A DNA stretch of 64,000 bases, taken from Cytophaga aurantiaca DSM 3654. Lineage in GTDB: Bacteria; Bacteroidota; Bacteroidia; Cytophagales; Cytophagaceae. The stretch covers positions 1 to 64,000 of the forward strand of contig NZ_KB903624.1 in the NCBI RefSeq assembly GCF_000379725.1. Reading direction: 5' to 3'. A program made the translations under genes and the position numbers. This document shows, piece by piece, positions 6,770 through 39,102 of the stretch (the stretch's first letter is position 1; each line of letters starts with the position of its first letter). The notes below the pieces were generated by a model. The model was given only the letters and a program-made list of their open reading frames with translations. It had not been told where the DNA came from and searched no databases.

Positions 6770-6858
6770 TTGGGTTTAAAATCCTAAAATACTCACTACA
6801 AGATTGTTATTCAAACCGAAGGATTGTATAAAAAGGGTGTGTCTTAATAAAAAAAGCG

Positions 6859-6866
6859 TATTTTTG
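6859..6866 (+). promoter_or_regulatory. Putative Bacteroidetes -7 element for the E2 gene
   Basis: TATTTTTG at 6859-6866 fits the TAnnTTTG consensus. It lies 32 bases before the ATG at 6898, after a 128-base gap from cinA. No good TTTG -33 element is visible at the expected spacing, so the call rests on the -7 box only. Confidence 0.4.
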
Positions 6867-6897
6867 TGTTTAGAAACAAAACAAAATTCCGTCAGTA

Positions 6898-24766: not shown

Positions 24767-26386
24767 ATGTCTGCAACTAAATATATTTTCGTAACCGGCG
24801 GGGTTACTTCATCACTCGGAAAAGGCATTGTAGCCGCTTCTCTCGCCAAACTTCTTCAAGCAAGAGGTTTTTCTGTCACCATCCAAAAATTTGATCCATA
24901 CCTGAACATCGACCCGGGTACATTGAATCCATACGAACATGGCGAATGCTATGTCACGGACGATGGTGCAGAAACCGATCTGGATCTTGGACATTACGAG
25001 CGTTTCTTGAGCACGCCTACATCCCAGGCAAACAACGTTACCACAGGTAGAATTTACAATACCGTTATTACCAAAGAGCGTCAAGGCGCATTCTTAGGCA
25101 AGACGGTACAGATTGTGCCGCACATTACCGACGAGATCAAACGCAACATTCAATTGCTGGGCGAATCCGGCAAATACGATATTGTAATTACTGAGATCGG
25201 TGGTTGTGTAGGTGATATCGAATCCCTTCCTTTCTTAGAAGCCGTTCGTCAGTTCCGTTGGGAAATGGGTCCGACTGAAACGTTGGTGATCCACTTAACA
25301 CTGGTGCCGTATTTGAATGCAGCCAAAGAATTAAAAACAAAACCTACTCAGCACTCCGTTAAACAATTATCGGAAACAGGAATTCACCCGGATATTCTTG
25401 TTTGTAGAACCGAGCATCCGTTGCCGCCTGAGTTGCGTAAAAAAATAGCTTTATTCTGTAATGTAAACATCAATTCTGTGATCGAATCCATCGATGCAGA
25501 AACGATCTACGATGTGCCGTTGCTGATGAAAAAAGAAAAGCTCGACGAACGTGTATTGGCGAAATTGAAGTTGCCGAACAAAAGCGAACCCGATCTTGAA
25601 ACATGGAAAGTATTTTTAGGTAAACTGAAGAATCCATTATCGGAAATAAACATCGCCCTTGTAGGGAAATATGTAGAACTTCCGGATGCATATAAATCCA
25701 TTTCAGAAGCCTTCATTCATGCAGGCGCTATGAACGAATGCAAAGTGAAGATCCGTTGGATCTCTTCCGAGCAATTACAGAAAGATAGTGTACAGCAGTT
25801 CCTTGGGTTTGCAGACGGTATCCTGGTAGCACCGGGTTTCGGCGAGCGCGGACTGGAAGGTAAAATTGCTGCCGTACAATTTGCACGTGAGAACAACATT
25901 CCGTTCTTCGGGATCTGTTTGGGTATGCAATGTGCAGTGATCGAATTTGCACGCAATGTATTGGGCTATAAAGATGCAAGCTCTACGGAGATGAATAAAG
26001 AAACTTCGCATCCGGTGATCAACATGATGGAGTCTCAGAAAGATGTTACCATGAAAGGTGGTACCATGCGTTTGGGCGCGTATCCATGTGAGTTGGTAAA
26101 AGGCTCGAAGGCACATGCGATCTATGGCAAGTCTAAGATTATGGAGCGTCACCGTCACCGTTATGAATTCAACAACAAATATTTGAAGCAGTACGAAAAA
26201 GAAGGTATGCTTGCAACAGGTATCAACCCGGAAACAAAGCTGGTTGAGATCGTTGAATTAAGAGACCATCCGTTCTTTATCGGAAGCCAGTTCCACCCGG
26301 AATTAAAAAGTACGGTAGAGAACCCACACCCGATCTTTGTGAAGTTTGTAAAAGCTGCAAACGATTTCGCTAAAGGGAAAAAGTAA
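24767..26386 (+). CDS. pyrG: CTP synthase
   Basis: 539 residues, full length. The N-terminal amidoligase domain starts [17 protein letters not shown] (P-loop) and has [19 protein letters not shown]. The C-terminal class I glutaminase domain has the nucleophile Cys in [10 protein letters not shown] and the His/Glu pair in GSQFHPEL. It makes CTP from UTP, ATP and glutamine. In many Bacteroidetes pyrG is followed by yidC. Here ~20.5 kb separates them. Confidence 0.98.
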
Positions 26387-26397
26387 GAACACACGCC

Positions 26398-26464
26398 TTG
26401 GTTGGTGTTTAGCGAGGCAGAATAATGAAATAAGATTGTACCTCACCCGAGCGTCACCAACCAA
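26398..26464. repeat. Inverted repeat just after pyrG
   Basis: TTGGTTGGTG at 26398-26407 pairs perfectly with CACCAACCAA at 26455-26464. It begins 12 bases after the pyrG stop. It could be a 3'-UTR structure or the scar or end of an inserted element, because the accessory block begins right here. Confidence 0.6.
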
Positions 26465-26476
26465 TATAGAATTAAT

Positions 26477-26506
26477 AAAGACCCATGCTGGAAAGTATGG
26501 GTCTTT
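26477..26506 (+). terminator. Terminator downstream of pyrG
   Basis: A 10-bp stem AAAGACCCAT/ATGGGTCTTT (26477-26486 with 26497-26506) is followed by CTTTTATATA. It is a good intrinsic terminator that insulates pyrG from the reverse-transcriptase module. Confidence 0.85.
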
Positions 26507-26654
26507 CTTTTATATATCATTTGTTTTCAGGATTAAAAGAATTAATATTAAGTGCTGGGGATTTTAAACACCTTTCATTTTTAATTCAAAGGCAGTATAT
26601 AATATTAGACTTAGATATAAAATTTGTGCCATTCTAAAAGCAAAAAAAGTTAAA

Positions 26655-27671
26655 ATGAGATATACAAATAGCATACTTGAAAGAAAAACCTCATTTCAAC
26701 TTAATGCCTTTTCTCCAATTTCAAAGCATTTAACAATCGAAGAAATTTTACGCTTAATAAAAAGCAATTATATACAAAATGAAGTAAATAAACTTAGACA
26801 ACTTTACTTGTGCGAAAACAAAGAAAATTATAGTGCTGAAAAATTACAACTGCCGGCTATTACATTTTGTGGTTCATTTGACGTTGAAAGAAAGAAAGAC
26901 AAATTGCTAACTTACAATAGCCTAGTTGTAATTGATATAGACAAATTATCAAGCGAGCAAATTTCAGAATATGAGGAAAAACTATCAAAAGATAAATATG
27001 TTTTTTCATACTGGCGATCTCCGTCAAATTTTGGAATCAAAGGCCTTGTAAACTTAAACTATAATTTTGAAATCAAAGATATTGATCATGCTCATAAAAG
27101 TGCGTTTTACAAATTGTACAATTACTTTGAAGTTACTCATAATATAGAACTTGATAAAAGCGGTAATGATACTACAAGACTATGTTTTTTATCTTATGAT
27201 CTCAATCTAGTTATAAAAGATCAGTTTGATGATTTTCAAATTGAAGAGGCAGATTTAAAAGAAAACAAGTTAGTTTCAACTAAAATTGCAGTTAAAACTA
27301 AACTTTATGATAAATCTAAAAATAATGCCTTATACAATCCTTCTAAAAGAAACAGTGGAATTGATAAAAGAGAAATGAAAGACATAATTAATTACTTAAC
27401 AAAAAGTAAAACTGTAATCACAGGCGACTACGATACTAGGTACAAAATTGCTTATTCTATTTCAAATACATTTACATTTGAAATAGGCAAGCTATTTTTT
27501 TTAAGTTTATGTCAGATAGAACAAGATAAGTATAATGAAAATAAAGAATTAAAACTATTAGAGTATTGCTATGAAAATAATGCTGGATTTATAAAATTCG
27601 ATTTCATAAAAAATTTAGTTAAAGAAAAATATAATTACAAACAAAAAACATTAGAAAAACGCGTTCAGTAA
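26655..27671 (+). CDS. BT4734-like / VirE N-terminal domain (primase-like) protein
   Basis: 338 residues, very Lys/Asn/Ile-rich and encoded in DNA much more AT-rich than pyrG. Residues ~65-185 match the BT4734-like (VirE-N) domain: ITFCGSFDVERKKDKLL, NSLVVIDIDKL with the Asp94-x-Asp96 pair, then YWRSPSNFGIKGLV. This family is regarded as related to archaeo-eukaryotic primases and is usually fused to a helicase; here no helicase is attached. Residues ~230-320 (RYKIAYSISNTF ... YNENKELKLLEYCYEN) resemble a PriCT-like helical tail. It lies directly upstream of a structured RNA and a reverse transcriptase. The 5' arm of the RNA's closing stem overlaps its last codons. Confidence 0.75.
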   Translation: MRYTNSILERKTSFQLNAFSPISKHLTIEEILRLIKSNYIQNEVNKLRQLYLCENKENYSAEKLQLPAITFCGSFDVERKKDKLLTYNSLVVIDIDKLSSEQISEYEEKLSKDKYVFSYWRSPSNFGIKGLVNLNYNFEIKDIDHAHKSAFYKLYNYFEVTHNIELDKSGNDTTRLCFLSYDLNLVIKDQFDDFQIEEADLKENKLVSTKIAVKTKLYDKSKNNALYNPSKRNSGIDKREMKDIINYLTKSKTVITGDYDTRYKIAYSISNTFTFEIGKLFFLSLCQIEQDKYNENKELKLLEYCYENNAGFIKFDFIKNLVKEKYNYKQKTLEKRVQ

Positions 27672-27822
27672 TGGGACTAAAAAATAAAACGTTCCTCCTT
27701 TCGGCAAGTAGAACAACCTTAATGGCTGTACTTGACTATAGCACATCATTTTGTATTATGGCACGATTTGTTGGGTACATCAAGGGGCAATCCTTGGTGT
27801 ATCACTTGAACGCGTTTTCTAA
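27651..27822 (+). ncRNA. Predicted structured RNA associated with the downstream reverse transcriptase
   Basis: 27651-27667 (TTAGAAAAACGCGTTCA) pairs with 27807-27822 (TGAACGCGTTTTCTAA): 16 base pairs with one bulged A. This closes a ~139-nt interior. Inside are a hairpin at 27725-27742 (GCTGTA/TATAGC, 6-nt loop, one G-U) and one at 27776-27801 (TACATCAAGG/CCTTGGTGTA, 6-nt loop, one G-U). A weaker GTTC/GAAC pairing lies near 27690-27713. The 3' arm ends 7 bases before the reverse-transcriptase ATG. No open frame of useful length is present. It is likely a template or cofactor RNA, as in retrons and some defence RTs. No promoter was seen, and the ends are approximate. Confidence 0.6.
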
Positions 27823-27829
27823 TTAATTT

Positions 27830-29806
27830 ATGGAATTCAAAGAATATTATAGTAGAGAAAGTATCATTAAATACTTATGCAAAATTCGAATTTCATATTC
27901 AAGTAAAAGACATAAAAAACAGCTTTTGAACAACCTTGTTCATAAAGATAATCATTTGAAAAAATCAAATGATTATTATGACGAAGAAATCATTAAACAA
28001 CTTAACCTACTATTACCAAGTAGAAGACAATGGCTAACACATAATAGCAAAACACATATTAAATGTAAAAACATTGTAACAGGTAAAGATGAATTAAAAA
28101 AAATAAATACAGATGATAAGAATAAGCAGATTTTATTTCATACGATAAAAAGACATGAAAAAAATAAATCAAAGTACAAGTATCAATTAGAGCTAGACAA
28201 ATTCATATCAGAAATTGAAAACGGAATTGATAACTGTAGTTACAAAATAACCACTCCTAATATCATACCTGAAGTTAAAGAAACTAGCAAATCAAAAATT
28301 AAATATAATATTCAAAAAAATAAAAAAATTGAATGTAGACCTATTTCAAGATTTTTATTAATGGACAGAATAGTAATAAGTTTATCTAATAAATTTTTAA
28401 CAAATTTATTAGATAATTATTTTGAAGATAGTGCACTTGCTTTTAGAGCAAAAAAAAATGAAGAAGAAAAAAACCATCACCTAGCAATTAATAAAATAAT
28501 AGATTTCAAACTTAAAAATTCTTCTGTTGATTTATTTGTAGCTGAATGTGATATAAAAAAATTTTATGATACAGTTAATCATGATTTATGTTTTAATCTA
28601 TTTGAAAATTTACTTGAAAAATCACAAAGCAATTGTAACAGTACTAGTATAAAAAATGCTAAGTATATTTTTAAAGAGTATTTAAATAGCTATAATTTTA
28701 AAGATGTAGTTAAATCAAAAGAATCTGAAAAATCATATTGGGAGCAGCATCTTCACCCAAATAAAAAACCTATAAATGGAAAATTTCCTTGGATTGAAAA
28801 AGAGATTTCACAAAACGATTTTTATAAAAAAAATATTAATCAAAATATTGGAGTGCCGCAAGGAGGTGCATTATCTGGACTAATTGCCAATATTATGCTT
28901 GATAAAGCGGACAAAAAATTAAAATTAATTTCCAATCTCTTCTACGTAAGATATTGTGATGATATGATTTTAATGCACACTGATGAAAATTCTTGTAAGG
29001 AGGCAATAAATATTTATAAAGCAATCTTAAATGATTTACTATTATTCAGCCATCCTTTTGAATCTTCTTTTTATACACTGAATAAAAATTACTCATCAAA
29101 AATAAACCTTATTCCAATTTTCATAATTAATTGGTTTAAAAACCATTCATTCTTAAATCAATTAAATTTAAAATTCGACAAATTAATTAAAAATATTTTT
29201 CCAAATTATAGAATTAGAAAAAAAAAGAGCTATAATTTAACTTTCAAACACTCATTAAAAAAATTTTGGAACTGCAAAAGCAAAGGTCCCTATAGATGGG
29301 GCAAATTAAATATTGAAAATAATACATTTCCTTGGATTGGCTTTGTTGGCTATGAAATAGATTATAACGGGAATATAAGAATTAGAAAGCGTTCATTAAA
29401 AAAAGAAATAGATAAACAAAAAAGAGTTATTACTAATATTTTAATAAGAATTTCTAAAGAAAATTTTCGGCATAAAACAAGTAGAAACAATGCAATCTAT
29501 CGATCTGCTCTTGAAAAATTGAATGGTATGTCTGTTGGAAGAGTAAGGCCTTACAATTACAAACTAATTGAGAACAAAATTTGTTGGGTAGATGGATTTA
29601 GAAGTTTAAATTTTAATAAATATTCAAAAATACAGCTTAAAAAATTAGATCGACACAAATACAAATTTTTAAATACCCTAAGACATAAAATTGGAGTAGA
29701 AAAAGTTGAAGGTACAGAAGCCGAATTCGATACTAAGAATATTTACAAACTTGGGAAAATGTTCAGCTATTTCTTCCATGCAGCAGAAAAAAAACATAAT
29801 GTATAG
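27830..29806 (+). CDS. Reverse transcriptase of unassigned class (retron/DRT-like candidate)
   Basis: 658 residues, strongly Lys/Asn/Ile-rich. The RT palm motifs are all present: RPISRFLLMDRI (~170-181), motif A AECDIKKFYD (Asp241), motif B GVPQGGALSG (341-350), motif C YVRYCDDMIL with the catalytic Asp377-Asp378, and a later WIGFVGYEIDYNG (502-514). It has ~160 residues before the palm and a Lys-rich stretch of ~95 residues (405-500) between the palm and that motif. There is no visible maturase/HNH domain and no group II intron domain V nearby, so a mobile intron is unlikely. The upstream structured RNA and the primase-like gene suggest a defence or retron-like system. Confidence 0.88.
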   Translation: MEFKEYYSRESIIKYLCKIRISYSSKRHKKQLLNNLVHKDNHLKKSNDYYDEEIIKQLNLLLPSRRQWLTHNSKTHIKCKNIVTGKDELKKINTDDKNKQILFHTIKRHEKNKSKYKYQLELDKFISEIENGIDNCSYKITTPNIIPEVKETSKSKIKYNIQKNKKIECRPISRFLLMDRIVISLSNKFLTNLLDNYFEDSALAFRAKKNEEEKNHHLAINKIIDFKLKNSSVDLFVAECDIKKFYDTVNHDLCFNLFENLLEKSQSNCNSTSIKNAKYIFKEYLNSYNFKDVVKSKESEKSYWEQHLHPNKKPINGKFPWIEKEISQNDFYKKNINQNIGVPQGGALSGLIANIMLDKADKKLKLISNLFYVRYCDDMILMHTDENSCKEAINIYKAILNDLLLFSHPFESSFYTLNKNYSSKINLIPIFIINWFKNHSFLNQLNLKFDKLIKNIFPNYRIRKKKSYNLTFKHSLKKFWNCKSKGPYRWGKLNIENNTFPWIGFVGYEIDYNGNIRIRKRSLKKEIDKQKRVITNILIRISKENFRHKTSRNNAIYRSALEKLNGMSVGRVRPYNYKLIENKICWVDGFRSLNFNKYSKIQLKKLDRHKYKFLNTLRHKIGVEKVEGTEAEFDTKNIYKLGKMFSYFFHAAEKKHNV

Positions 29807-29881
29807 CTTTTCAAATTTACAATCCGCTCTTCTGAATTTATAATCAAGAAGCCCGACAAAAAGCACTTCTAATCTCAACAA

Positions 29882-30523
29882 ATGACCAAATACTCCAAAT
29901 ACCTCAATACCTTTTTCTTTGGTATAGCAGCGCTTGCGGTCATTGATTTCATGACACGGGATGGCATAGATTCTGCGGCAAGGTATCTGTACAAAGATTT
30001 TGAATTTGGAATTACCTATAGAACTATAGACGACTGGCTTTTATTAACATCCTTATTTTATTTATTGCTCCAGGAATGGAGTACCACACCAAACAAACGC
30101 CTATCAGCCATTGCATCGATTGTGTATACAGGTGTTATTATGATCGATATACATATATGGCTTTGGTGGACGCAATGGAGCTGGCTTTACTACTACATAA
30201 CCATCATTCATACAATACCCATACTCATTGCTTTTTCAAAATTAAAAATTGATATCAAACCCAAACAACTATTATTTATTGGGCTGGCCATCATATTCAT
30301 TGGTTTCTTATTTGATGTGATCTTTATCAATATCCCCTACCCGGATATGACAGATGAGATATTTGACAGAAATATAATCGTTGAAAAGACACGTAATATG
30401 ATTTATTACGTAGGTTTCGTAAGCATTGCATTCGGAATGATTACGTTGGTAAAGAAAAACAATACCAATAAACAACTACCCTCACCGTGGTCTGTGGCAC
30501 ACAGAGCACCCAAGGCAAACTGA
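29882..30523 (+). CDS. Multi-pass membrane protein (hypothetical)
   Basis: 213 residues with about six predicted transmembrane helices (e.g. FFFGIAALAVIDFM, LSAIASIVYTGVIMIDIHIW, LLFIGLAIIFIGFLFDVIF, IYYVGFVSIAFGMITLV). It is aromatic-rich around the WLWWTQWSWLYYY segment. No family was recognised. Base composition returns to the genome-like range compared with the preceding RT gene. The 75-base gap to the RT gene shows no terminator, so read-through is possible, but a functional link is not supported. Confidence 0.7.
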   Translation: MTKYSKYLNTFFFGIAALAVIDFMTRDGIDSAARYLYKDFEFGITYRTIDDWLLLTSLFYLLLQEWSTTPNKRLSAIASIVYTGVIMIDIHIWLWWTQWSWLYYYITIIHTIPILIAFSKLKIDIKPKQLLFIGLAIIFIGFLFDVIFINIPYPDMTDEIFDRNIIVEKTRNMIYYVGFVSIAFGMITLVKKNNTNKQLPSPWSVAHRAPKAN

Positions 30524-30574
30524 GTTAAGGAAGAATTTATAATACAAATGATTTCAATATAACATCTTGTTAAA

Positions 30575-30994
30575 ATGACATACAAATACTCCATCTGTTA
30601 TCCAAACAAGAAAAATATAGAATACAGAAATAGTGCGCTCACTGGAAATGTGATCTTAGATATTGCTAAAAAATATCCTTGGATCGAACAAGTTGAACTT
30701 GCTGATTCAATGCATCAAAACGAATTGTGTTACAGTCCATCTTTGGATTTTACCTGCATTGAAGATGGAAGAAGCTTTTGTTTAACGGCTATTTATAATA
30801 CTAAAAAAGAACTCGAATTCTCATTGTGGTATTATAGACCTAAAAAAGTCAATATTCTATTTGGTCTATTAGGAAAAAAGGAAAAAATGGTAGTCGATGA
30901 TTTTTGGTCATGCGATCTGGATAAAGCAATAAAATATCTTGAACATTTTGTAAATAAAGAGTATCAAATCATTGAGGACTTATATAAAAAATAA
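30575..30994 (+). CDS. Hypothetical cytosolic protein
   Basis: 139 residues, no signal or membrane segment. It is mixed alpha/beta with WSCDLDKAIKYLEHFVNKEY near the end and WIEQVELADSMHQNELCY near the start. It is not recognised as a named family. It looks like a small soluble protein and has normal codon use for the window. It lies between two membrane-protein genes on the same strand. Confidence 0.6.
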   Translation: MTYKYSICYPNKKNIEYRNSALTGNVILDIAKKYPWIEQVELADSMHQNELCYSPSLDFTCIEDGRSFCLTAIYNTKKELEFSLWYYRPKKVNILFGLLGKKEKMVVDDFWSCDLDKAIKYLEHFVNKEYQIIEDLYKK

Positions 30995-31027
30995 CCGTGT
31001 ACAAAACACATAAATAAACACAATCCT

Positions 31028-31495
31028 ATGAGCACATTAGACGGCATAGGCACCCGATTCAACGGCGTATCACAACCGGACGAACAGGGCCATGTACATG
31101 CGACCTCCTGGTTTACCTTTCTGTACCTTCCGCTTGTACCGCTTTGGAGAGCAGAAATAAAAAGAGAAATAACACTTCCTCTAAAAACGTTTAACTATCA
31201 GGTCATTCAAAAACTTCCCTTAGATAAGAGTGAAATTTTGAAAACCTATTTATACGGATGGATCTTGATTCCATTATTGTTATTGGGCCCTGCTCTGTTC
31301 CTGATACCTGAGATTCATCAGCAACTTGGTATTGCTTCACCTCCACCCAGAAATCTCATTAAGGGAGATTCTTTAAACTGGCACGACTGGTTTTTCATTG
31401 CTTACATTATATATCTGGTTGTACTATCGGTTAAATTATACAGCAGTGATATAAAAAGAGGATTACCAAAAGATTATAAAAGATTCTTGTCTTAA
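31028..31495 (+). CDS. Small membrane protein (hypothetical)
   Basis: 155 residues. The N-terminal motif STLDGIGTRFNGVSQPDEQG and TSWFTFLYLPLVPLWR are typical of a group of bacterial membrane proteins whose family name I cannot give. Two strong helices follow (YLYGWILIPLLLLGPALFLI and WFFIAYIIYLVVLSVKLY). The function is unknown. It starts 33 bases after the previous gene. Confidence 0.65.
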   Translation: MSTLDGIGTRFNGVSQPDEQGHVHATSWFTFLYLPLVPLWRAEIKREITLPLKTFNYQVIQKLPLDKSEILKTYLYGWILIPLLLLGPALFLIPEIHQQLGIASPPPRNLIKGDSLNWHDWFFIAYIIYLVVLSVKLYSSDIKRGLPKDYKRFLS

Positions 31496-31546
31496 CCGTC
31501 GTTTAAGAATAAACTCAAATTTTGTTCAATCTATTCCCCTACTCCT

Positions 31547-32239
31547 ATGAAAAATATTTTATGTATACTTTTTTTAAGCATCGCTGGTTTTTCCTTTGCA
31601 CAGACTAAAAACTTCATCGATCAGCCATATCTGGAAACCGTTGTAACAGTAGATACATTCGTTACTCCGGATAGAATTTATCTGAGCATTTTAATTACAG
31701 AAAAAGATACCAAAGGAAAAATCTCTGTAGAAGAATTAGAAAATCAAATGATCGAAAAATTTAAATCCATCGGCATCGATATTGAAAAGCAATTGTTCTT
31801 ATCCGATGTATCCAGTAATTTCAAAAAATACTTTATAAAAAGTCAGGATATATTAAAAAGCAAATCATACTACCTGATCGTAAGTAATGCGCAAACGGCC
31901 GGTATGGCACTTATTGAGCTGGAAAATTTAGGTATCTCCAATGTTGATTTAGCTAAAGTCGAATATTCAAAAATAGAAGAGTTAAAAGTTGAACTTAAAT
32001 CTAAAGCTGTATTCAAAGCACGGAAATTAGGTGAAGCAATGACGAAGCCGCTGAACCAAAAATTAGGTGCAGCCATTTATATATCCGATAGCTATAAAGA
32101 TTATACCGTGAATTCAGTCTCAGCGATGCAAGTACGCAAATCATCATCATCACACTACGCTACCAGTCCTAAAGTTGAGATCCAATTTGAAAAGATCAAA
32201 GTTGAAGTGGAGGTGAGCGTTAAGTTTAAGATTGAGTAA
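31547..32239 (+). CDS. SIMPL-domain (DUF541, YggE-like) exported protein
   Basis: 230 residues with a signal peptide (MKNILCILFLSIAGFSFAQ). The mature part matches the SIMPL/DUF541 family: an ETVVTVDTFVTPDRIYLSIL beta-strand start, the dimer/oligomer helix region KFKSIGIDIEKQLFL, and KARKLGEAMTKPLNQKLGAA near the C terminus. Family members are periplasmic or outer-membrane proteins linked to oxidative stress or of unknown role. It is probably periplasmic. It ends just before a repeat-rich gap. Confidence 0.85.
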   Translation: MKNILCILFLSIAGFSFAQTKNFIDQPYLETVVTVDTFVTPDRIYLSILITEKDTKGKISVEELENQMIEKFKSIGIDIEKQLFLSDVSSNFKKYFIKSQDILKSKSYYLIVSNAQTAGMALIELENLGISNVDLAKVEYSKIEELKVELKSKAVFKARKLGEAMTKPLNQKLGAAIYISDSYKDYTVNSVSAMQVRKSSSSHYATSPKVEIQFEKIKVEVEVSVKFKIE

Positions 32240-32277
32240 ATGATACCAGCGTTGATATTTTCATCTTTATCCTAATC

Positions 32278-32316
32278 ACGACTCAACCCGTTGTTGTGCC
32301 AACGGCCAACAACCCT
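32278..32316. repeat. Partial copy of the CAACCCGTTGTTG palindromic repeat
   Basis: Contains CTCAACCCGTTGTTGTGCCA then ACGGCCAACAACCC. This is the left half of the element seen complete at 46608-46740, and it runs into a second repeat class at 32321. Confidence 0.75.
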
Positions 32317-32320
32317 GTAA

Positions 32321-32491
32321 AATAAAGCCCCAGCGGGGCGATATATCTGTAGAAAAAATACAGTTGAGAAACATTACGCACGGAGCTCCGTCAAGGAGCG
32401 ACTAACGTCAAACAACATAGCGTCCCGATGGGACTTGTGCGTTTGTTCTCTCTTTTTATTTTTTTCTACCTATATTTCATCCCTACGGGAT
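32321..32491. repeat. Cluster of short GC-rich palindromes
   Basis: Four small hairpins lie in 171 bases: GCCCC-agc-GGGGC (32327-32339), GCTCC-gtcaa-GGAGC (32385-32399), GTCCC-gat-GGGAC (32422-32434) and ATCCC-tac-GGGAT (32479-32491). All share the pattern NNCCC-3/5 nt-GGGNN. This is REP-like intergenic DNA common in Bacteroidetes. Part of it recurs at 34405-34430. Confidence 0.7.
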
Positions 32492-32534
32492 TATATGTAC
32501 AATAAATTAGAGTTATCGGAAACACCAACAACAC

Positions 32535-33542
32535 ATGAAAAAACACATATCCATTGTATCGCTTATATTATTCCTATTTACGATATGGAGCTGCAATAAC
32601 AGAGAGTTCGCAGAAGTCAAAAAATTATCTGAATATAAAAAGACTTCCTTTTTACCTACACTTGAACATTCAATCAACAGCGATACCAATGCGGTTTATT
32701 GTGTGACACTTTTATACGCCTGGGACGAAGTACGCAAACTAATCAATCATCCTTTCATCATCAATCCGGATTTTTATGATCTGCAAACATTGAACAATTC
32801 AAAGTCATTTCTGAATGTGCTGCAAAACAATGAATATGAAGCGAGCGGTGAGGTAGATGGTTTCTCAATCAAAACACGAGCAGAATTCACCAAATCCTTA
32901 CCCTTTGAATTCAAATTACAAAGCTTTACAAACAAGCTTATTTTTAATAAACAAAAAGTTGCGTCCTTCGGAATGATCGGTAATAATGAAGATCTTACCC
33001 CCATCATTAAAATTGTATACTATAAAAACGATGCTAATTTCATTATCAAGCTGCTTCCCAAAGACAAAGAACATGAGATCCTGTTGTTTCAATCGGATAA
33101 AAAGTTTCATTCACTTAAGGAGATGCATGCAGAAATACAACGTCTCACAGTTCTTGGAAATAAAGAACGATTATCTAATAAAACACAGTGGAAATATTAT
33201 TTTTCAGAGGAAGATGAACTTATCATTCCGAAGTTTAATTTCAACATAGAGACAAATTACAAAACACTAGAAGGTAAGTCCTTTCAAGCAAGTACACAAA
33301 CCTACTCGATCGACAAAGTATGGCAACGAACAGCTTTTATGTTAGATGAGGCAGGTGCAGAGATCGAAAGTGAAGCAGTAATTGAAGTAGCAGCAGATGG
33401 TCCTGATGAAAATACTGAAAAACCCAAACCCAAAAAGATGATCTTTAATAGATCATTTTTAACGCTTTTAAAAAGAACAGATGCACCATACCCTTACTTC
33501 GCACTCTGGACAACAAATGCAGAGTTGATGGTAAAGGAATAA
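32535..33542 (+). CDS. Hypothetical lipoprotein (335 aa)
   Basis: The N terminus MKKHISIVSLILFLFTIWSC is a lipoprotein signal (Cys20). The mature part has a serpin-like general layout (YAWDEVRKLINHPF, SFLNVLQNNEYEASGEVDGF, ending ILFNRSFLTLLKRTDAPYPY-like), but I cannot support membership of the serpin or any named family. It is possibly an enzyme inhibitor or binding protein on the cell envelope. It is followed after 17 bases by another lipoprotein gene, probably the same operon. Confidence 0.6.
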   Translation: MKKHISIVSLILFLFTIWSCNNREFAEVKKLSEYKKTSFLPTLEHSINSDTNAVYCVTLLYAWDEVRKLINHPFIINPDFYDLQTLNNSKSFLNVLQNNEYEASGEVDGFSIKTRAEFTKSLPFEFKLQSFTNKLIFNKQKVASFGMIGNNEDLTPIIKIVYYKNDANFIIKLLPKDKEHEILLFQSDKKFHSLKEMHAEIQRLTVLGNKERLSNKTQWKYYFSEEDELIIPKFNFNIETNYKTLEGKSFQASTQTYSIDKVWQRTAFMLDEAGAEIESEAVIEVAADGPDENTEKPKPKKMIFNRSFLTLLKRTDAPYPYFALWTTNAELMVKE

Positions 33543-33559
33543 GTTGATAAAAACATTAA

Positions 33560-34396
33560 ATGATGAAAAACCTCCTTACCCTCCTACTCTCCTTCACATT
33601 TTTAAGTTGCCAATCTCAGACAACAGAAAAAATTAATACGTCTGTATCAACAAACAGCAGCGCTCTACCAAAGAACATCACCCAGTTCGATACCACATCC
33701 AAGACTATACATATTTTTGTTGCGTTGTGTGATAATAAATATCAAGGTATTGTTCCCGTACCAGCAAAGATTGGTAACGGACAGGATGCACATAACAATT
33801 TGTACTGGGGCTGTGGCTTTGGTATTCGTACCTATTTTAAGAACAGCACAGAATGGAAATTGGTTAAGACACAAAAGATCGATTCGCTGCTATTCGAACG
33901 CATCATTTTTAAACATGCTACGAAAAACTATTACCTGATCGCAGATGCATACAACGGAAAATACATCAAACACTGTACAGAAGAATTCCTTCGCAGCAGT
34001 TCCGGTCAATTGAAAGATACACTACATGTAAATAATAAAGTGATAGGCATCGCAGGCAATTCAAAACTCATAGCCTATATCGGTCACGATGGCTTGATGG
34101 ATTTCAAGCTGACAGAAACCTTTCAAAATACCGACAAGCAAAAACGCGATGTGATCATTCTTGCCTGCTACAGCAAATCTTATTTTACAACGCATTTAAA
34201 AGCAGCCAATGTAAATCCGCTTGTCTGGACTACAGGACTGATGTGTCCTGAAGCATATACCATTCATGATGCCATCACAGGTTATGTAAACAAGGAAACA
34301 AACGAAGCTATCCGAACACGTGCTGCACTTGCCTATTCCAAATATCAAAAGTGCAGTGTGCAGGCAGCACGTAATTTACTGGTGACGGGCTGGTAA
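33560..34396 (+). CDS. Hypothetical lipoprotein with a caspase-like His/Cys pair
   Basis: 278 residues. The signal MMKNLLTLLLSFTFLSC has its lipobox Cys at 17. The mature part has HIFVALCDNKYQGI (51-64), then IAYIGHDGLMDF with His176 and VIILACYSKSYF with Cys203. This strand-His-Gly ... strand-x-Cys order is that of clan CD (caspase-fold) peptidases, with a plausible GNGQD loop earlier. The assignment is an inference from motif order only. It probably sits in an operon with the preceding lipoprotein. Confidence 0.55.
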   Translation: MMKNLLTLLLSFTFLSCQSQTTEKINTSVSTNSSALPKNITQFDTTSKTIHIFVALCDNKYQGIVPVPAKIGNGQDAHNNLYWGCGFGIRTYFKNSTEWKLVKTQKIDSLLFERIIFKHATKNYYLIADAYNGKYIKHCTEEFLRSSSGQLKDTLHVNNKVIGIAGNSKLIAYIGHDGLMDFKLTETFQNTDKQKRDVIILACYSKSYFTTHLKAANVNPLVWTTGLMCPEAYTIHDAITGYVNKETNEAIRTRAALAYSKYQKCSVQAARNLLVTGW

Positions 34397-34404
34397 ATAC
34401 CTTG

Positions 34405-34430
34405 TAAATAAAGCCCCAGCGGGACGGCAT
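34405..34430. repeat. AAATAAAGCCCCAGCGGGAC repeat fragment
   Basis: Shares AAATAAAGCCCCAGCGGG with the palindrome cluster at 32321. It lies in the 44 bases between two convergent genes and may act as a bidirectional stop. Confidence 0.55.
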
Positions 34431-34440
34431 AGCATGATGT

Positions 34441-34860
34441 TCAGGCAGCAAGTTCCTCTTTCAAACGACTGGAAATTTCTTTTAAAAGCGTTTCTCTATT
34501 CTTCTTCACCTGAGTTACAAATTTCTTTTCAACGGTACTATCCGGATCGTACTTCGCGCTCCACATAATGAGTTCAACCAAAACAGGCAATAGGTCAATC
34601 CCCTTTTGACTAAGCTTGTAAATGTATTTAGAACCGTGTGCAGGATCCGGTAGTTTGATCACGACTTCAGCCTCTTCAAGCAATGCCAACCTGTCCGCTA
34701 AAATATTTGTTGCAATTTTTTCTTCAGATTTTAAAAACTCCCCATAAGAATGTTTTCCCTTAAGCATCATATCGCGGACAATTAGCAAGGTCCATCGATC
34801 TCCAAACAATTCTAATGCATAATTTATCGGACAATCCGATTTTCTTTTTTGAGCTCCCAT
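34441..34860 (-). CDS. HxlR-family winged-helix transcriptional regulator
   Basis: 139 residues. The family core is clear: CPINYALELFGDRWTLLIVR, the recognition region YGEFLKSEEKIATNILADRL, and the wing GSKYIYKLSQKGIDLLPVL. HxlR proteins are dimeric regulators that often control a divergent gene. Here it is divergent from a GNAT gene, with two palindromes in between. Its promoter (TACTTTTG at 34865-34872 on the minus strand) places transcription start at or next to the A of the ATG, suggesting a leaderless mRNA. Confidence 0.9.
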   Translation of the reverse strand: MGAQKRKSDCPINYALELFGDRWTLLIVRDMMLKGKHSYGEFLKSEEKIATNILADRLALLEEAEVVIKLPDPAHGSKYIYKLSQKGIDLLPVLVELIMWSAKYDPDSTVEKKFVTQVKKNRETLLKEISSRLKEELAA

Positions 34861-34864
34861 ACTA

Positions 34865-34938
34865 CAAAAGTAAAATATTTTAAAATCACTTGCAATTTAC
34901 AAGTAGATATATTTATCTTTGTGCTTGCATATTGCAAG
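34865..34938. promoter_or_regulatory. Divergent HxlR/GNAT control region with two operators
   Basis: Operator 1 is ACTTG-7 nt-CAAGT (34888-34904). Operator 2 is CTTGCA-TAT-TGCAAG (34924-34938). Centres are 35 bp apart. The rightward promoter is TTG (34890-34892), 21 nt, TATCTTTG (34914-34921). The leftward one is TTG (34895-34893), 20 nt, TACTTTTG (34872-34865). The two -33 boxes are back to back in TTGCAA inside operator 1, so binding there would affect both genes. Confidence 0.75.
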
Positions 34939-34958
34939 TAGTTACAATTAAAAGAATA

Positions 34959-35402
34959 ATGGAAATAAAACCATATGAGCAAACATACAGAGAACAAATG
35001 ATCTCCGTTTGGGAACGGTCTGTTCGGGCAACCCATCATTTTGTCAGTTCTGCAGAAGTGAACCGCTTGAAAGAACTCGTAAAACAAATTGACTTTTATT
35101 CCTATTCGGTATACTGTCTGATTTCAGAAAATAAGGTACTCGGATTTTTGGGTGTTGAAGACCGGGTTATAGAAACCTTGTTTCTGGATCCGGATTATAT
35201 CGGGCAAAAATTGGGAACAAAGCTTATGCACTTTGCTTTGGAAGAATTACACGCAAACAAAGTCAATGTAAATGAGCAAAACGCAGATGCAATTAAATTT
35301 TATTCTAAATTCGGATTCATTACCTATGACAGATCAGAGAAAGATGCAGAAGGAAATGATTATCCGATTTTAAAAATGAAATTACAGGAACACGAAAAAT
35401 AA
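34959..35402 (+). CDS. GNAT N-acetyltransferase (YjaB-like)
   Basis: 147 residues from the ATG at 34959. An upstream extension would run through the operators and promoter, so this start is preferred. The protein begins MEIKPYEQTYREQMISVWER, has RATHHFVSSAEV typical of YjaB-like acetyltransferases, GFLGVEDRVIETLFLDPDY, and an acetyl-CoA loop region GQKLGTKLMHFA. It is divergent from the HxlR regulator and is probably its target. Another GNAT gene follows after 6 bases (operon). Confidence 0.85.
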   Translation: MEIKPYEQTYREQMISVWERSVRATHHFVSSAEVNRLKELVKQIDFYSYSVYCLISENKVLGFLGVEDRVIETLFLDPDYIGQKLGTKLMHFALEELHANKVNVNEQNADAIKFYSKFGFITYDRSEKDAEGNDYPILKMKLQEHEK

Positions 35403-35408
35403 ACGCAG

Positions 35409-35864
35409 ATGTTATTCCGACTTTTAACGAAAGAAGATGTTATCCCCTATGAATTGCTTTTAGATGCAGATCCTTCTAAGAAGCTTGTTGACTTATATAT
35501 GTCTAAAGGCGACACGTATATTGCAGTTCAGGATAATACAACTATAGGTGTATGTGTGCTTGTAGCAATTAATACGGATACCACTGAAATAAAAAATCTT
35601 GCTGTCGCCGAAGCTCTCCAGGGAAAAGGAATTGGCACAAAAATTATACAGCATGTTTTTGAACTTGCAAACAACAAGGGATACAAAACCATACTTGTTG
35701 CCACTTCTACACCCAACATAGGTCCGCTTTATCTGTATCAAAAAATGGGTTTTGAATTTGATTACATCATTAAGCATTTTGTTGACACGCATTACGACGA
35801 ACCTTTATATGATAATGGAATCAGATGCAATCACATGATCGTACTTTCAAAAAAGGTTGTTTGA
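35409..35864 (+). CDS. GNAT N-acetyltransferase
   Basis: 151 residues. Motif A is clear: EIKNLAVAEALQGKGIGTKI, with the acetyl-CoA pyrophosphate loop QGKGIG. VATSTPNIGPLYLYQKMGF is motif B. It starts 6 bases after the previous GNAT gene, so it is co-transcribed and under the same HxlR control. The two adjacent acetyltransferases are different in sequence, not a recent duplication. Confidence 0.88.
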   Translation: MLFRLLTKEDVIPYELLLDADPSKKLVDLYMSKGDTYIAVQDNTTIGVCVLVAINTDTTEIKNLAVAEALQGKGIGTKIIQHVFELANNKGYKTILVATSTPNIGPLYLYQKMGFEFDYIIKHFVDTHYDEPLYDNGIRCNHMIVLSKKVV

Positions 35865-36003
35865 TGCAAAATTTGTTATACCATTATATCTAATTTTATA
35901 TATTTAGACCACAGAATATTAGGTTAACGATCAGATCCGATGCGGTGGAGGCACACAACGCTAAAAATTTATCAAGAAAGTCGTACATTGTGCTTTTAAC
36001 AAC

Positions 36004-37566
36004 ATGAACATGTTTTTCAAAAGAATATATATACTTCTTTTATTTCTTTTTATTCTTTTTCAAGCAAGGAGTCAAAACCTTGTTCCGAATCCAAGTTTTG
36101 AAAATGCAACTGGCGATCCTCCTTGTGATATTATTCAGACTAAGGAACAATTTAGTAATAACATGCAAAATTGGATAATGCCTACTGATGGAACAAGCGA
36201 TATATATACGAGTAGTTGTCCTTATCTTGGACTAGGTCCTCAAGCCCCCAGAACTGGAAATGTCATGTGTGCAATTATTCCCTATACAGCATACCCAAGT
36301 CCTTCTTACGGTTACAGAGAATACCTTCAGGTAAAATTAACACACCCACTTATTATAGGAAAAAAATATTATGCAGAAATGTACGTCTCTGCTGCAGATT
36401 TCGCTACATATGGATGCAACAATATAGGCATGGCTTTTTCGGATACACAAATCAGCACATTCGATTATGGAGTTATACCATTTACGCCACAAATAAAAAG
36501 TAATAATGTTATTACTGATATAGATAATTGGGTTAAAATATCCGGAACATTTACTGCTACTACTGCCGCACGATATTTAACCATTGGTAATTTCAACGAT
36601 GATGTAAGCACTTCTTCAACACTTCTAGCTATCGTCCCTATTATAGCCGGTTCCTATTATTACATTGATGATGTTTTGGTAGAATATGGCTGTAACCCCA
36701 AAGATAGTTCAACCAGTATCTGTAAAGGGAATTCCATCACTATTAACTACGATAAATATATTGATAGCTGGTCATTGGCAAGCGATCCCAATACCATCCT
36801 TTCAAATACATCCACATTGATCGCATCTCCTCAAATTACGACAAGCTACATAGCACATTATACCTGCGGTGAAACATCTACCTTTGAAGTCATCGTAGAT
36901 ACCTTACCTACACTTACGCTTGGAAAAGACACAACAATCTGCAAAGGCGAAACGATTTTCTTTGACGCAACAACTCAACATGCCCGTTATCTATGGCAAG
37001 ACGGTTCAACAAATCCTACCTATACCATTGATAAAACCGGAAAGTACTCCATAGAAATTTCAAATGGCTGCGGTAATTTTTATGACACGCTGCTCGTCAC
37101 AGTAAACAAACCTGCTGCATTTAGCTTCGGAACTGATACAACGATCTGCTCAGGAGAAATTATGACATTTAATGCTACAACAGATGGTGCAAGTTATTTG
37201 TGGCAGGATGGTTCAACAAATTCGGTATACACAATCAATGATCCGGGATATTATGCTGTTATTATTAAAAATGTTTGTGGAACAACAAATGAAAATATTA
37301 CACTAAACGTATGTTGCGCCGGTGCGAAAATACCTAATCTAATAACACCCAATGGAGATGCTATGAATGAAACGTTCAACATTGATTGTTATGGCCACGG
37401 TGATTATGAGTTGGCTATTTATAACACCTGGGGATCGCTCATATATCATAACACTGCTTACCTGAATAACTGGAATGGTAATGATGTGTCGGATGGAATA
37501 TATTATTATGTAATAAAATTCAAAAACACATCCATTAATAACGGTTGGGTTCAGATAATACGATAA
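36004..37566 (+). CDS. T9SS surface protein with SprB-like repeats and gliding-type C-terminal domain
   Basis: 520 residues. A signal peptide is present (to ~24, LFQARSQ). Residues ~25-230 start NLVPNPSFENATGDPP and end IIAGSYYYIDDVLVEYGC, the layout of a carbohydrate-binding (CenC-like) beta-sandwich. Two ~75-residue repeats follow (LTLGKDTTICKGETIFFDAT and FSFGTDTTICSGEIMTFNAT, each with YLWQDGSTN). The C terminus has PNLITPNGDAMNETFNI and YNTWGSLIY, the type B T9SS sorting domain shared with the giant protein at 9303-16124. It is predicted to be exported and surface-bound, possibly to polysaccharide. Confidence 0.9.
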   Translation: MNMFFKRIYILLLFLFILFQARSQNLVPNPSFENATGDPPCDIIQTKEQFSNNMQNWIMPTDGTSDIYTSSCPYLGLGPQAPRTGNVMCAIIPYTAYPSPSYGYREYLQVKLTHPLIIGKKYYAEMYVSAADFATYGCNNIGMAFSDTQISTFDYGVIPFTPQIKSNNVITDIDNWVKISGTFTATTAARYLTIGNFNDDVSTSSTLLAIVPIIAGSYYYIDDVLVEYGCNPKDSSTSICKGNSITINYDKYIDSWSLASDPNTILSNTSTLIASPQITTSYIAHYTCGETSTFEVIVDTLPTLTLGKDTTICKGETIFFDATTQHARYLWQDGSTNPTYTIDKTGKYSIEISNGCGNFYDTLLVTVNKPAAFSFGTDTTICSGEIMTFNATTDGASYLWQDGSTNSVYTINDPGYYAVIIKNVCGTTNENITLNVCCAGAKIPNLITPNGDAMNETFNIDCYGHGDYELAIYNTWGSLIYHNTAYLNNWNGNDVSDGIYYYVIKFKNTSINNGWVQIIR

Positions 37567-37588
37567 GAATAAGATTTTATTTACATTT

Positions 37589-38173
37589 CTATCGATGCAG
37601 ATGCGTGCGTGACATACGTCCGATATTAATCAAGCCACCATTCTCAGGCCGTGGCAATCCATAACGTAGATACAAACCAAACATATTATGTGAAGCATCT
37701 GTTGTATTTCCGCTAAAGTCATAAAATCCGGTAATAATTCCGATCCCCCATTTATCCCAAAACTGTCCGTAGATGGTATAAGAAATTTCAAGCATTAAAT
37801 AATTTTTTGAATTGAATACACCTCCGGCACCGATCGTCATTTCATTTGAAAAAATACCGTACTGACAAACATCCATAGTAACTTTCGCTTCGAGGTAATG
37901 TGTACCGTTTCCGGAAGTATCCTTTATTGCTGTTTTCCCATATACCACTCCGGCATCGATCATTCCAAATGATTTTCCGATTTCAATATTTTGTGTAATT
38001 CTGTTTACCGGATATCCTGCACCTGTATAGATCCCCAAAGGCATAAACCTCGCATACATTGTTTTTGTAAAAGGTTCTTTGATGCTGTCTTTTTTAACCG
38101 GAGTCTGAGCATGTAGCTGCGCTGTCGTTGCTATATAAAAAAATACAATCAGGAAGAAAAGTATGCGATGCAT
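37589..38173 (-). CDS. Hypothetical outer-membrane protein
   Basis: 194 residues with a signal peptide (MHRILFFLIVFFYIATTAQL). The mature part has regular amphipathic strands (FGMIDAGVVYGKTAI, LMLEISYTIYGQF, WGIGIITGFYDF, MFGLYLRYGLPRP), consistent with a small outer-membrane barrel. No named family was recognised. It is convergent with the T9SS protein gene, 22 bases apart. Confidence 0.65.
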   Translation of the reverse strand: MHRILFFLIVFFYIATTAQLHAQTPVKKDSIKEPFTKTMYARFMPLGIYTGAGYPVNRITQNIEIGKSFGMIDAGVVYGKTAIKDTSGNGTHYLEAKVTMDVCQYGIFSNEMTIGAGGVFNSKNYLMLEISYTIYGQFWDKWGIGIITGFYDFSGNTTDASHNMFGLYLRYGLPRPENGGLINIGRMSRTHLHR

Positions 38174-38314
38174 AAACAGTTTAATTAAAGATAAAGAATG
38201 ATGTTACGAATGACACCCAAAAGTGTCACTATCAAATACAAAAACGATTCTGTATCTATTCTGTTTATTTTATTAATAAGGTTTCTTCCACCTTCTTCAC
38301 ACTTCTATAAAAAA

Positions 38315-38346
38315 AAAGAGCGCTCTTAAAAATAAGAGCGCTCTTT
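38315..38346 (-). terminator. Hairpin terminator after outer-membrane protein gene
   Basis: A perfect 13-bp stem (38315-38327 with 38334-38346), core GAGCGCTC, with a 6-nt loop. An A run on its left becomes a T run for leftward transcripts, so it terminates the leftward barrel gene ending at 38374. Confidence 0.88.
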
Positions 38347-38373
38347 CCCTGAATCGAATAAACTACCTAAAAC

Positions 38374-39102
38374 CTATTCATCGTCTGTATCACCGAAGAA
38401 ATACGTTAGTCCGATTGTGAAACCATAATTTTTTGAAGTGATATCACCTCTGTGTGATTCCCAGTTAGAGTCTTGATAATGCGGTTGTGTATTCGTCAAA
38501 CCCATGTGGTATTGACCTGTAAACAACAATCCACCTACCTGATAACCTAGACCATAATTGATACCCCAGCTCATCTGATTAAAATATCTTGTATCTCCAG
38601 TGTGATTGGATGGTGTTTCGCCAGGTTGCAAAGAACCATTTTGCTTATACTGTGTAGCAATAAATATTCCGGAAGAATCGGATGTTTGTGAATACTTACC
38701 ATTTAAGCCAAGACTGAATTGAGGAGCTATGAATACATTAAATTTACCCGGACCTGCAGGAAATGTAGCAACAAAATTCAACGGAATAGATAAATAATTG
38801 TAGGTATTTTTGATTGTGTTTGTATTACCATCATTATCACCAAACTTCGTTTCTCCACCCATTATATTATATAGTACTTCCGGACGAATGGAAAAATAAT
38901 CTGATGTTTTAAAATTGATGGCCACACCAGCCTGGTAGCCAACTTTCGCTGTATGCGATTTAACATCGGTACCGGCAAAATCACCTGAGAATTTTAAACT
39001 TTCATAATTCACATTCAATCCTATTTTTGGACCAATGGTTACCTGTGCCTGTAATGCAGAAGCTGCCAGTAAAAGACAAAAACTTGCGTAAACTTTTTTC
39101 AT
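38374..39102 (-). CDS. Porin-family outer-membrane beta-barrel protein
   Basis: 242 residues. Signal peptide MKKVYASFCLLLAASALQAQ. It then follows the outer-membrane beta-barrel pattern common in Bacteroidetes: VTIGPKIGLNVNYESLKF, YQAGVAINFKTSDYFSIRPE, LSIPLNFVATF, and a C-terminal strand YGFTIGLTYFF. It is probably an 8-stranded barrel of unknown ligand. Monocistronic, leftward, with its own terminator. Confidence 0.82.
   Translation of the reverse strand: MKKVYASFCLLLAASALQAQVTIGPKIGLNVNYESLKFSGDFAGTDVKSHTAKVGYQAGVAINFKTSDYFSIRPEVLYNIMGGETKFGDNDGNTNTIKNTYNYLSIPLNFVATFPAGPGKFNVFIAPQFSLGLNGKYSQTSDSSGIFIATQYKQNGSLQPGETPSNHTGDTRYFNQMSWGINYGLGYQVGGLLFTGQYHMGLTNTQPHYQDSNWESHRGDITSKNYGFTIGLTYFFGDTDDE

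Follow-up and report, generated by a model that had tools for sequence, protein, structure and literature searches.

The UG39 reverse transcriptase locus of Cytophaga aurantiaca: a conserved structured RNA, a primase-like partner and a putative role in defence

Among the defence-associated reverse transcriptases (DRTs), two systems serve as the main points of comparison for the locus analysed here. In DRT9 (class UG28), a non-coding RNA (ncRNA) lies immediately upstream of the reverse transcriptase (RT) and its template is a universally conserved poly-uridine, and in DRT10 (UG17) the template has the form A-B-A' and is reported to be located after a stable stem-loop (PMC12632851). C-terminal tyrosines of DRT9 and a C-terminal Ser/Tyr of DRT10 are reported to be needed for priming (PMC12489045; PMC12483538; PMC12632851). 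Here we highlight a locus of Cytophaga aurantiaca DSM 3654, located in a window of 64,000 nucleotides (contig NZ_KB903624.1, positions 1 to 64,000 of the forward strand), in which an RT of class UG39 is encoded together with a structured RNA in cis and a protein of the archaeo-eukaryotic primase (AEP) type, that is, a primase-polymerase. We propose that these three parts form a defence-type system. On balance we favour a DRT9/DRT10-like mode of action, in which the RT would copy a short stretch of its own RNA into repetitive DNA and the AEP would make the second strand.

Both proteins are encoded by intact open reading frames (ORFs) on the plus strand, an AEP-like gene of 338 amino acids (aa) at 26655..27671 and an RT gene of 658 aa at 27830..29806, and the DxD motif (in VVIDIDKL) and the YCDD motif noted by an earlier sequence-only reading of the window are present in them as described. 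That reading also took their pairing for an unrecognised type, which did not hold: the pairing is already catalogued, because PADLOC holds models for both proteins (RT_UG39 and RTasVirE-PriCT2, of which both window proteins are members by profile) and an association of VirE_N with UG28b is in print. UG28b is an RT clade split from UG28, and VirE_N is reported beside 45-46% of its members (PMC8934634). The UG28b class of myRT is very probably the same as UG39, with whose AEP partner this co-occurrence agrees; the accessible text of PMC8934634 gives no RNA or mechanism. The PADLOC entries are protein models for an uncharacterised DRT class, and 8 of the 26 loci compared here are without the AEP. 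No paper on the RNA or mechanism of the UG39 class was found in the open-licence PMC literature by titles and abstract starts. The conserved UG39 RNA seems new, and it may be described elsewhere; together with its motif slot, the C-terminal Ser-Tyr of the RT and the pattern of AEP presence, it is what the present analysis adds.

The RT is matched best by PADLOC RT_UG39 (PDLC03778; E 5.4e-171, 568 bits), followed by the Drt9 model (E 1.9e-21, 74 bits), from which we infer that UG39 belongs to Class 2 of the UG systems. It also carries the Pfam domain RVT_1, of which it is the sole match in the window's genome (E 0.001). The YCDD active-site motif (residues 375-378; 28952..28963, plus strand) contains D377 and D378, both invariant in the 19 rows of the RT alignment. 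When the predicted RT model was used as a Foldseek query, DRT9 was the best match (E 2e-13), and in VIA-align DRT9 covered the most residues (Z 20.9, 422 residues, root-mean-square deviation (rmsd) 4.3), with telomerases near Z 13. Among the DRTs, the predicted fold is thus nearest to that of DRT9. The reading frame of the RT is broken in three relatives (L026, L035, L139), which could reflect decay or sequencing error.

A conserved C-terminal tail may be a further likeness to DRT9. The window's RT carries Phe-Ser-Tyr at residues 645-647 (29762..29770, plus strand); 16 of 16 AEP-associated RTs compared have [FY]SY at this end, and Ser-Tyr is found at 25 of the 25 readable C-termini among 27 RTs, those of L008 (a run of N) and L139 (an early stop) being unreadable, those of L026 and L035 being taken from the frame past the break, and that of L007 reading ASY. 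The Ser-Tyr is preceded by a variable linker of low predicted confidence. Because DRT9 is reported to prime from C-terminal tyrosines and DRT10 from a Ser or Tyr at this end, S646 and Y647 are candidate priming residues, and the UG39 RT is probably protein-primed.

Between the two genes, the sequence-only reading had seen a folding gap of 155 nt. The folding stands (z -5.3), the gap measures 158 nt (27672-27829), and the RNA exceeds it, since its 5' arm lies within the upstream gene. The ncRNA comprises 174 nt (27650..27823, plus strand) and is bounded by a terminal stem whose ends were set by eye from the fold, as they were for all RNAs described here. The 5' arm of this closing stem (27650..27668) overlaps the last codons of the AEP-like gene, and the 3' arm (27806..27823) stops 6 nt short of the RT start codon. 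A last hairpin with 13 pairs in the minimum-energy fold occupies 27774..27803, and the stretch directly 5' of it (27757..27773) is, by its position, the candidate template; within it, 27767-27773 is unpaired in the same fold. The region 27640-27840 folds at -57.2 kcal/mol, a value reached by 0 of 200 shuffles. The fixed 5' and 3' regions of the window RNA pair with one another better than with those of 20 other loci (rank first), and 0 of 200 shuffles equal this pairing. An Rfam search of 26380-30000 gave matches below the gathering score only, and four relatives searched in the same database gave no match at gathering score.

An RNA with a terminal stem, 145-217 nt long, lies directly upstream of the RT in all 26 loci that contain the RT 5' side, which is the position that the ncRNA takes in DRT9. 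These comprise 18 AEP-associated loci (the window, W, and L023, L024, L025, L028-L035, L047 and L135-L139) and 8 AEP-less loci (L002-L008 and L026); L140 (RT 3' part only), L027 (the same gene as L006) and shorter copies of the same places (L001, L009-L022, L046, L129-L134) were dropped. The 240 nt upstream of the RT reach z -2 or lower in 15 of 20 loci (60 shuffles each), the weakest being L025 at -0.3. Across 21 loci, a locus's own fixed 3' region pairs with its own 5' region at a mean rank of 2.1 of 20, with L035 as the exception (rank 11 of 20); in 14 of the 21 this pairing is matched by at most 10 of 200 shuffles, and in the other seven (L002, L006, L023, L024, L026, L035, L047) it does not rise above the shuffles.

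Covariation points in the same direction for part of the family. A covariance model, R1, built from five loci found three loci that were fetched later (L139, L135 and L136; E 7e-29, 1e-18 and 2e-17) and the more distant L032 and L034 (E 8e-6 and 2e-4). In the alignment of its 10 matches, which was fitted to the model and hence leans towards it, 22 of 34 pairs carry compensatory changes (11 of 15 in the closing stem, 6 of 9 in the first hairpin and 5 of 5 in the central stem), covariation is 0.418 against 0.193 in shuffled alignments (reached in 0 of 500), and 86.5% of cells pair against 72.2% when shuffled, falling to 44-53% when the partners are slid. Among the AEP-less RNAs of one clade, pairing reaches 93.8% of cells against 88.4 in shuffles, and 12 cells are doubly changed where shuffles give 5.0; neither the pair types (8 vs 12.4) nor the doubly changed pairs (5 vs 4.0) rise above the shuffled numbers there. 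No consensus structure emerged when 12 AEP-associated RNAs were aligned with MAFFT and folded with RNAalifold.

An upstream RNA of this kind could also serve another purpose: the RT and the AEP may make DNA independently of any RNA, as in DRT4 or DRT7, with the folded element acting in cis as a regulatory leader for the RT gene. In all loci read, it immediately precedes the RT start, which agrees with this, as do the in-frame RT start codon that lies inside the RNA in L033 and L034, the pairing of part of the conserved motif in R1, and the report that DRT7, an RT joined to a primase-polymerase, is protein-templated (PMC13213688). We consider a leader unlikely, since it would have no obvious need for a terminal stem round 145-217 nt with a conserved motif inside, and since those Class 2 UG systems that have been studied are reported to template on a cis RNA (PMC13174585). 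The start codons in question (L033 at 8120, L034 at 7875, both of the divergent type) fall within the conserved RNA motif (ATGTCAG...), so that RNA and RT coding sequence may overlap.

Two further alternatives take the terminal stem itself as their starting point. In a DRT2-like system, the RT would circle the loop closed by this stem and the resulting concatemer would encode an endless reading frame. The stem does close a template-sized loop, and one frame is open across all 174 nt of the window RNA (58 codons), as it is over the whole length of 7 of 21 RNAs (W, L005, L007, L008, L030, L031, L035), the observed open length being reached by 71 of 200 shuffles on average. We nevertheless hold this to be quite improbable: shuffling the window RNA gives an equally open frame in 15 of 200 cases, closed RNAs exist (L023 with 31 codons, L025 with 32 and L026 with 40), and the mild excess of open frames could come from the AEP gene or the RT frame running into the RNA. 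A retron-like system, in which the stem would be the a1/a2 pair, the product a short branched multicopy single-stranded DNA, and the AEP an effector or polymerase, is the most doubtful alternative of all. Long complementary ends adjoining an RT do resemble a1/a2; retron RT models score far lower than their thresholds demand, and Rfam gave no match. Retron membership was rejected on these scores (NCBIfam retron_St85 28.9 bits vs a cut-off of 235; PADLOC retron RT_outgroup E 0.005).

The favoured copying of a short internal stretch draws on what the RNAs share directly before their last hairpin. Of the 18 AEP-associated RNAs, 13 carry the motif UCAGUAU at a distance of 31-54 nt from their 3' end (mean 0.26 and maximum 2 in shuffles), and 7 of the 8 AEP-less RNAs carry CGAUUCGAUU in the equivalent position, at 34-44 nt. 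The longer UAUGUCAGUAUCUUUG is exact at five distinct places among 128 loci (L023, L028, L030, L034, L047). Most relatives carry their motif at the position equivalent to 27757-27773 of the window. In addition, seven aligned AEP-less RNAs have in common a hairpin with a nearly invariant loop directly before a perfect period-5 repeat, an arrangement of the A-B-A' kind (35 vs 25.3 shuffled, reached in 1 of 300; measured in the fixed region -80 to -25 of 20 of the 26 RNAs, near-duplicates being left out). Over whole RNAs and over the fixed 3' region, the AEP-less clade alone passes the same comparison. An imperfect 12-nt repeat is found in L028, L030 and L136.

These features resemble DRT10 in the candidate template stretch after a stem, the C-terminal Ser/Tyr and, in the AEP-less clade, the repeat; they differ from it in that the DRT10 RNA is reported upstream of the DRT10 SLATT gene. 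SLATT is an occasional partner of DRT9 as well, whereas the UG39 partner is an AEP, and among 10 flanking proteins of relatives searched with Pfam, SLATT_6 gave one sub-threshold match, about 1.1 kb downstream in L034. Unlike DRT9, the UG39 RNAs have no conserved poly-uridine run: 8 of 26 contain no run of at least 4 U outside the outer 15 nt, and elsewhere such runs have no fixed position. The closing stem and motifs of UG39 appear to be its own, and its RT scores 74 bits with the DRT9 profile against 568 with that of UG39.

The third part, the AEP, is less constant than the RNA. The sequence-only reading had asked whether homologues keep both the upstream gene and the gap RNA: the RNA with its closing stem is kept throughout (26/26), and the gene, found in 18/26 loci, is not obligatory. 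It adjoins the RT on the same strand in 14 of these and divergently in 4 (L025, L032, L033, L034), and in the latter the RNA keeps to the strand of the RT. In L139 its ORF has 196 aa only. Absence from the remaining 8 was called from ORFs of at least 70 aa in the available flanks, which in L005 extend only 1.4 kb upstream. In a tree of 19 RTs with a midpoint root, from which L008, L035 and later-fetched loci were left out, the four divergent loci join six AEP-less ones (fork 95/94), and these six form a group of their own (100/100); L007, AEP-less and long-branched, is placed with uncertainty. Under this root, loss of the AEP in one clade is the simplest reading, and under another root it could be a gain instead. 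Where both are present, AEP and RT distances agree closely (Mantel r 0.92, 0 of 5000 permutations, 16 loci, uncorrected for species relatedness). The AEP thus appears to coevolve with the RT and can be absent; because its gene is found in 18 of the 26 loci and is missing from one clade, we regard the RT and the RNA as the constant core.

For the AEP protein itself, the PADLOC model RTasVirE-PriCT2 (PDLC03818; the PriCT-2 label is PADLOC's own) matches residues 7-332 on positions 2-318 of 320 (E 4.8e-114), and Pfam BT4734-like_N (PF08800) reaches 88.6 bits against a gathering cut-off of 22.4. Motif I, D94-x-D96 (26934..26942, plus strand), is invariant in homologues, both residues being kept in 13 of 13 and 16 of 16 sequences of two alignments. 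Structural matches to the AlphaFold2 model (pLDDT 86.6, pTM 0.60) are weak. Foldseek yields 0 matches at E 0.001 or better, and VIA-align places the PrimPol of African swine fever virus (ASFV) first with Z 10.9 over 227 residues, but at an rmsd of 13.4, followed by the S-2L PrimPol (Z 7.6, 145 residues, 4.5) and the CRISPR-associated PrimPol CAPP (5.8), middling VIA-align Z values being such as can arise by chance. A search of PDB sequences with the AEP profile gave chance-level matches only. Type B CRISPR-associated PrimPol was rejected as an identity (NCBIfam PrimPol_Db 67 bits vs a cut-off of 200).

Joint action of an RT and an AEP primase-polymerase is also a feature of DRT7/UG10 and CAPP-RT, where the two are reported as one fused protein; in the window they are separate genes, the AEP is of the BT4734 type and an RNA accompanies them. 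Membership in DRT7/UG10 was rejected, as RT and PrimPol are separate ORFs. DRT3 is likewise reported to pair an RNA-templated RT with a second DNA-making enzyme, which there is another RT (UG8) and not an AEP, the DRT3 RNA lying downstream (PMC13174585). In L138, a second and distant AEP-like protein (5804-7090, 428 aa, E 5e-15) is encoded about 0.5 kb beyond the RT 3' end.

Taken together, we envisage that the RT would bind the RNA, held together at its ends by the terminal stem, and would repeatedly copy a short segment that precedes the last hairpin, close to the RNA 3' end. A Ser or Tyr in the C-terminal tail of the RT itself would start the cDNA. The AEP might then synthesise the second strand or a primer for that strand, and the repetitive DNA would accumulate and could be toxic or act as a signal in phage infection. 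The template stretch, protein priming, the role of the AEP and defence are all inferred. A bolder version, which we rate as possible though rather unlikely, would make UG39 a telomerase-like immune RT: starting on its C-terminal Ser/Tyr, the enzyme would use a tiny template within its RNA to add repeats in tandem, and outside the AEP-less clade the AEP would convert these to duplex DNA; the AEP-less clade would produce (GAATC)n from the conserved CGAUUCGAUU. If this were true, the pairing of RT and primase would parallel that of telomerase with polymerase alpha-primase.

Several observations weigh against the DRT9/DRT10-like interpretation. At the protein level, motif II of the AEP (sxH) is not conserved as such in homologues, which instead share an invariant S122-P-S124..G127..K129 with no His, and an invariant H147 elsewhere; a substituted motif II His has been described for another, active AEP (PMC5862659). 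With the weak structural matches, and though DxD is invariant, this leaves Pfam and PADLOC profiles as the main support for the AEP assignment. The RT model is of middling confidence (pLDDT 78, with the linker 626-643 below 50). In VIA-align, the RTs of diversity-generating retroelements (DGR; Z 21.6, 317 residues, rmsd 3.0) and of group IIC introns (Z 20.6, 366 residues, rmsd 4.2) tie with DRT9, and a sequence-profile search of the PDB ranks group II intron RTs (E 1e-24) above DRT9 (5e-18) and DRT2 (7e-16). At the RNA level, R1 with a threshold of E 0.001 fails to find 7 of 17 AEP-associated loci (L024, L025, L029, L033, L035, L137, L138), and it also misses the RNAs of all six AEP-less loci given to it. 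RNAalifold pairs part of UCAGUAU in a helix 4 of five pairs with 0 compensatory changes, so that an open template at the motif is a guess. The A-B-A' form of DRT10 is not enriched in the window's AEP-associated clade (80 vs 76.9 shuffled, reached in 83 of 300), and the window RNA has neither the family motif nor an A-B-A' repeat beyond chance. R1 matches the window RNA only at the closing stem, with 8.9 bits, and scores its reverse strand higher, with 14.8 bits; default R1 searches (as L001 with E up to 10, and in its own genome) gave no match to it. The window RNA therefore appears divergent, among the least typical members of the family together with that of L025.

For the family as a whole, an uncharacterised RT class now has a defined RNA, which covaries in part of the family. 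The class also has a proposed site for the template, proposed priming residues and a primase-like partner dedicated to it that one clade is missing. This raises the questions of whether an RT of DRT9/DRT10 type makes sequence-defined DNA in these loci, whether the AEP makes the second strand, and what replaces the AEP where it is absent.

Anti-phage defence is likely, given the class of the RT and the defence-type genes that lie next to it in relatives. Among 20 hand-picked flanking proteins, chosen with no control set, type I methylase or specificity genes were found in L028, L031, L032 and L047, BREX PglZ/BrxL in L026, an OLD-like protein in L002, and AAA ATPases of an AbiEii-type Pfam family in L025 and L030. 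The scan was blank for L002 (second protein), L008, L023 and L033, and returned sub-threshold matches only for L006 (first protein) and L034. The UG39 model matches 5 of 395 genomes across the phylum and 8 of 390 in the window's order, the window's genome being included in both, and 2/397, 3/245, 3/222, 1/170 and 7/168 genomes in single families, all of these samples overlapping. One plasmid record carries UG39 (Thiospirochaeta perfilievii) and phage records gave no match. Viral contigs gave none with a single-protein query or with a hairpin pattern, and with a profile query they gave 76 loci at E 2e-6 or weaker that cover only part of the RT. One relative (L005), whose RT is sister to that of Hydrotalea, lies on a 3.6 kb contig of an Oceanicaulis metagenome-assembled genome; it is probably a binning error and not a transfer to Pseudomonadota.

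The same genomic setting might instead belong to a domesticated or mobile retroelement, derived from group II introns and replicating itself with a replication primase, with no role in defence. High A+T, a variable segment, the report that bacterial AEP genes are nearly always linked to mobile elements (PMC5862659) and the group II RTs at the head of the PDB sequence matches would fit such an element. We find it very improbable, as there is no intron RNA, no maturase domain and but a single RVT_1 match in the genome, and as relatives adjoin type I restriction, BREX and OLD-like genes. A group II intron, whose RNA and maturase the sequence-only reading had named as decisive against its view, was rejected: even with E up to 10, Rfam showed no intron in 26380-30000, Pfam gave no maturase family, and TIGR04416 reached 78 bits against 300.

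The compositional contrast described by that reading is borne out, with a GC content of 0.21-0.28 in the module; pyrG has 0.41-0.46, and the sequence on the right-hand side about 0.31-0.38. Its suggestion of an acquired, possibly anti-phage RT system is partly supported: a conserved RNA lies next to the RT, which has a partner of the BT4734/VirE-N type, the stretch is not shared by two same-genus genomes, and several homologous loci have defence-type neighbours. pyrG is common to those two genomes (identity 95 and 92%), and collinearity with them returns only at about 38.4 kb, so that the module lies inside a variable stretch of 12 kb whose limits do not mark those of the module itself. This stretch (26387-38374), which follows pyrG on its right, is without a collinear counterpart in the equivalent 4.6-4.8 kb of the two genomes, with one 68-nt match elsewhere; it appears to be a hot spot of variation that extends beyond the RT module. 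An empty insertion site could not be placed in the two genomes searched, in which the gene at 30575-30994, right of the module, was not found either.

Two minor observations concern repeated sequences. Near the 3' end of the membrane-protein gene, a 26-nt element (30485-30510) has one exact copy in the window and is part of a short sequence found at 3 further places in the window's genome and at tens in the same-genus genome G825, which suggests a small dispersed repeat. Downstream of the RT in L031, two minus-strand ORFs (9717-9977 and 11718-11981) share the same first 50 residues and enclose the gene that follows the RT, as if this gene had been inserted or duplicated with a repeat.

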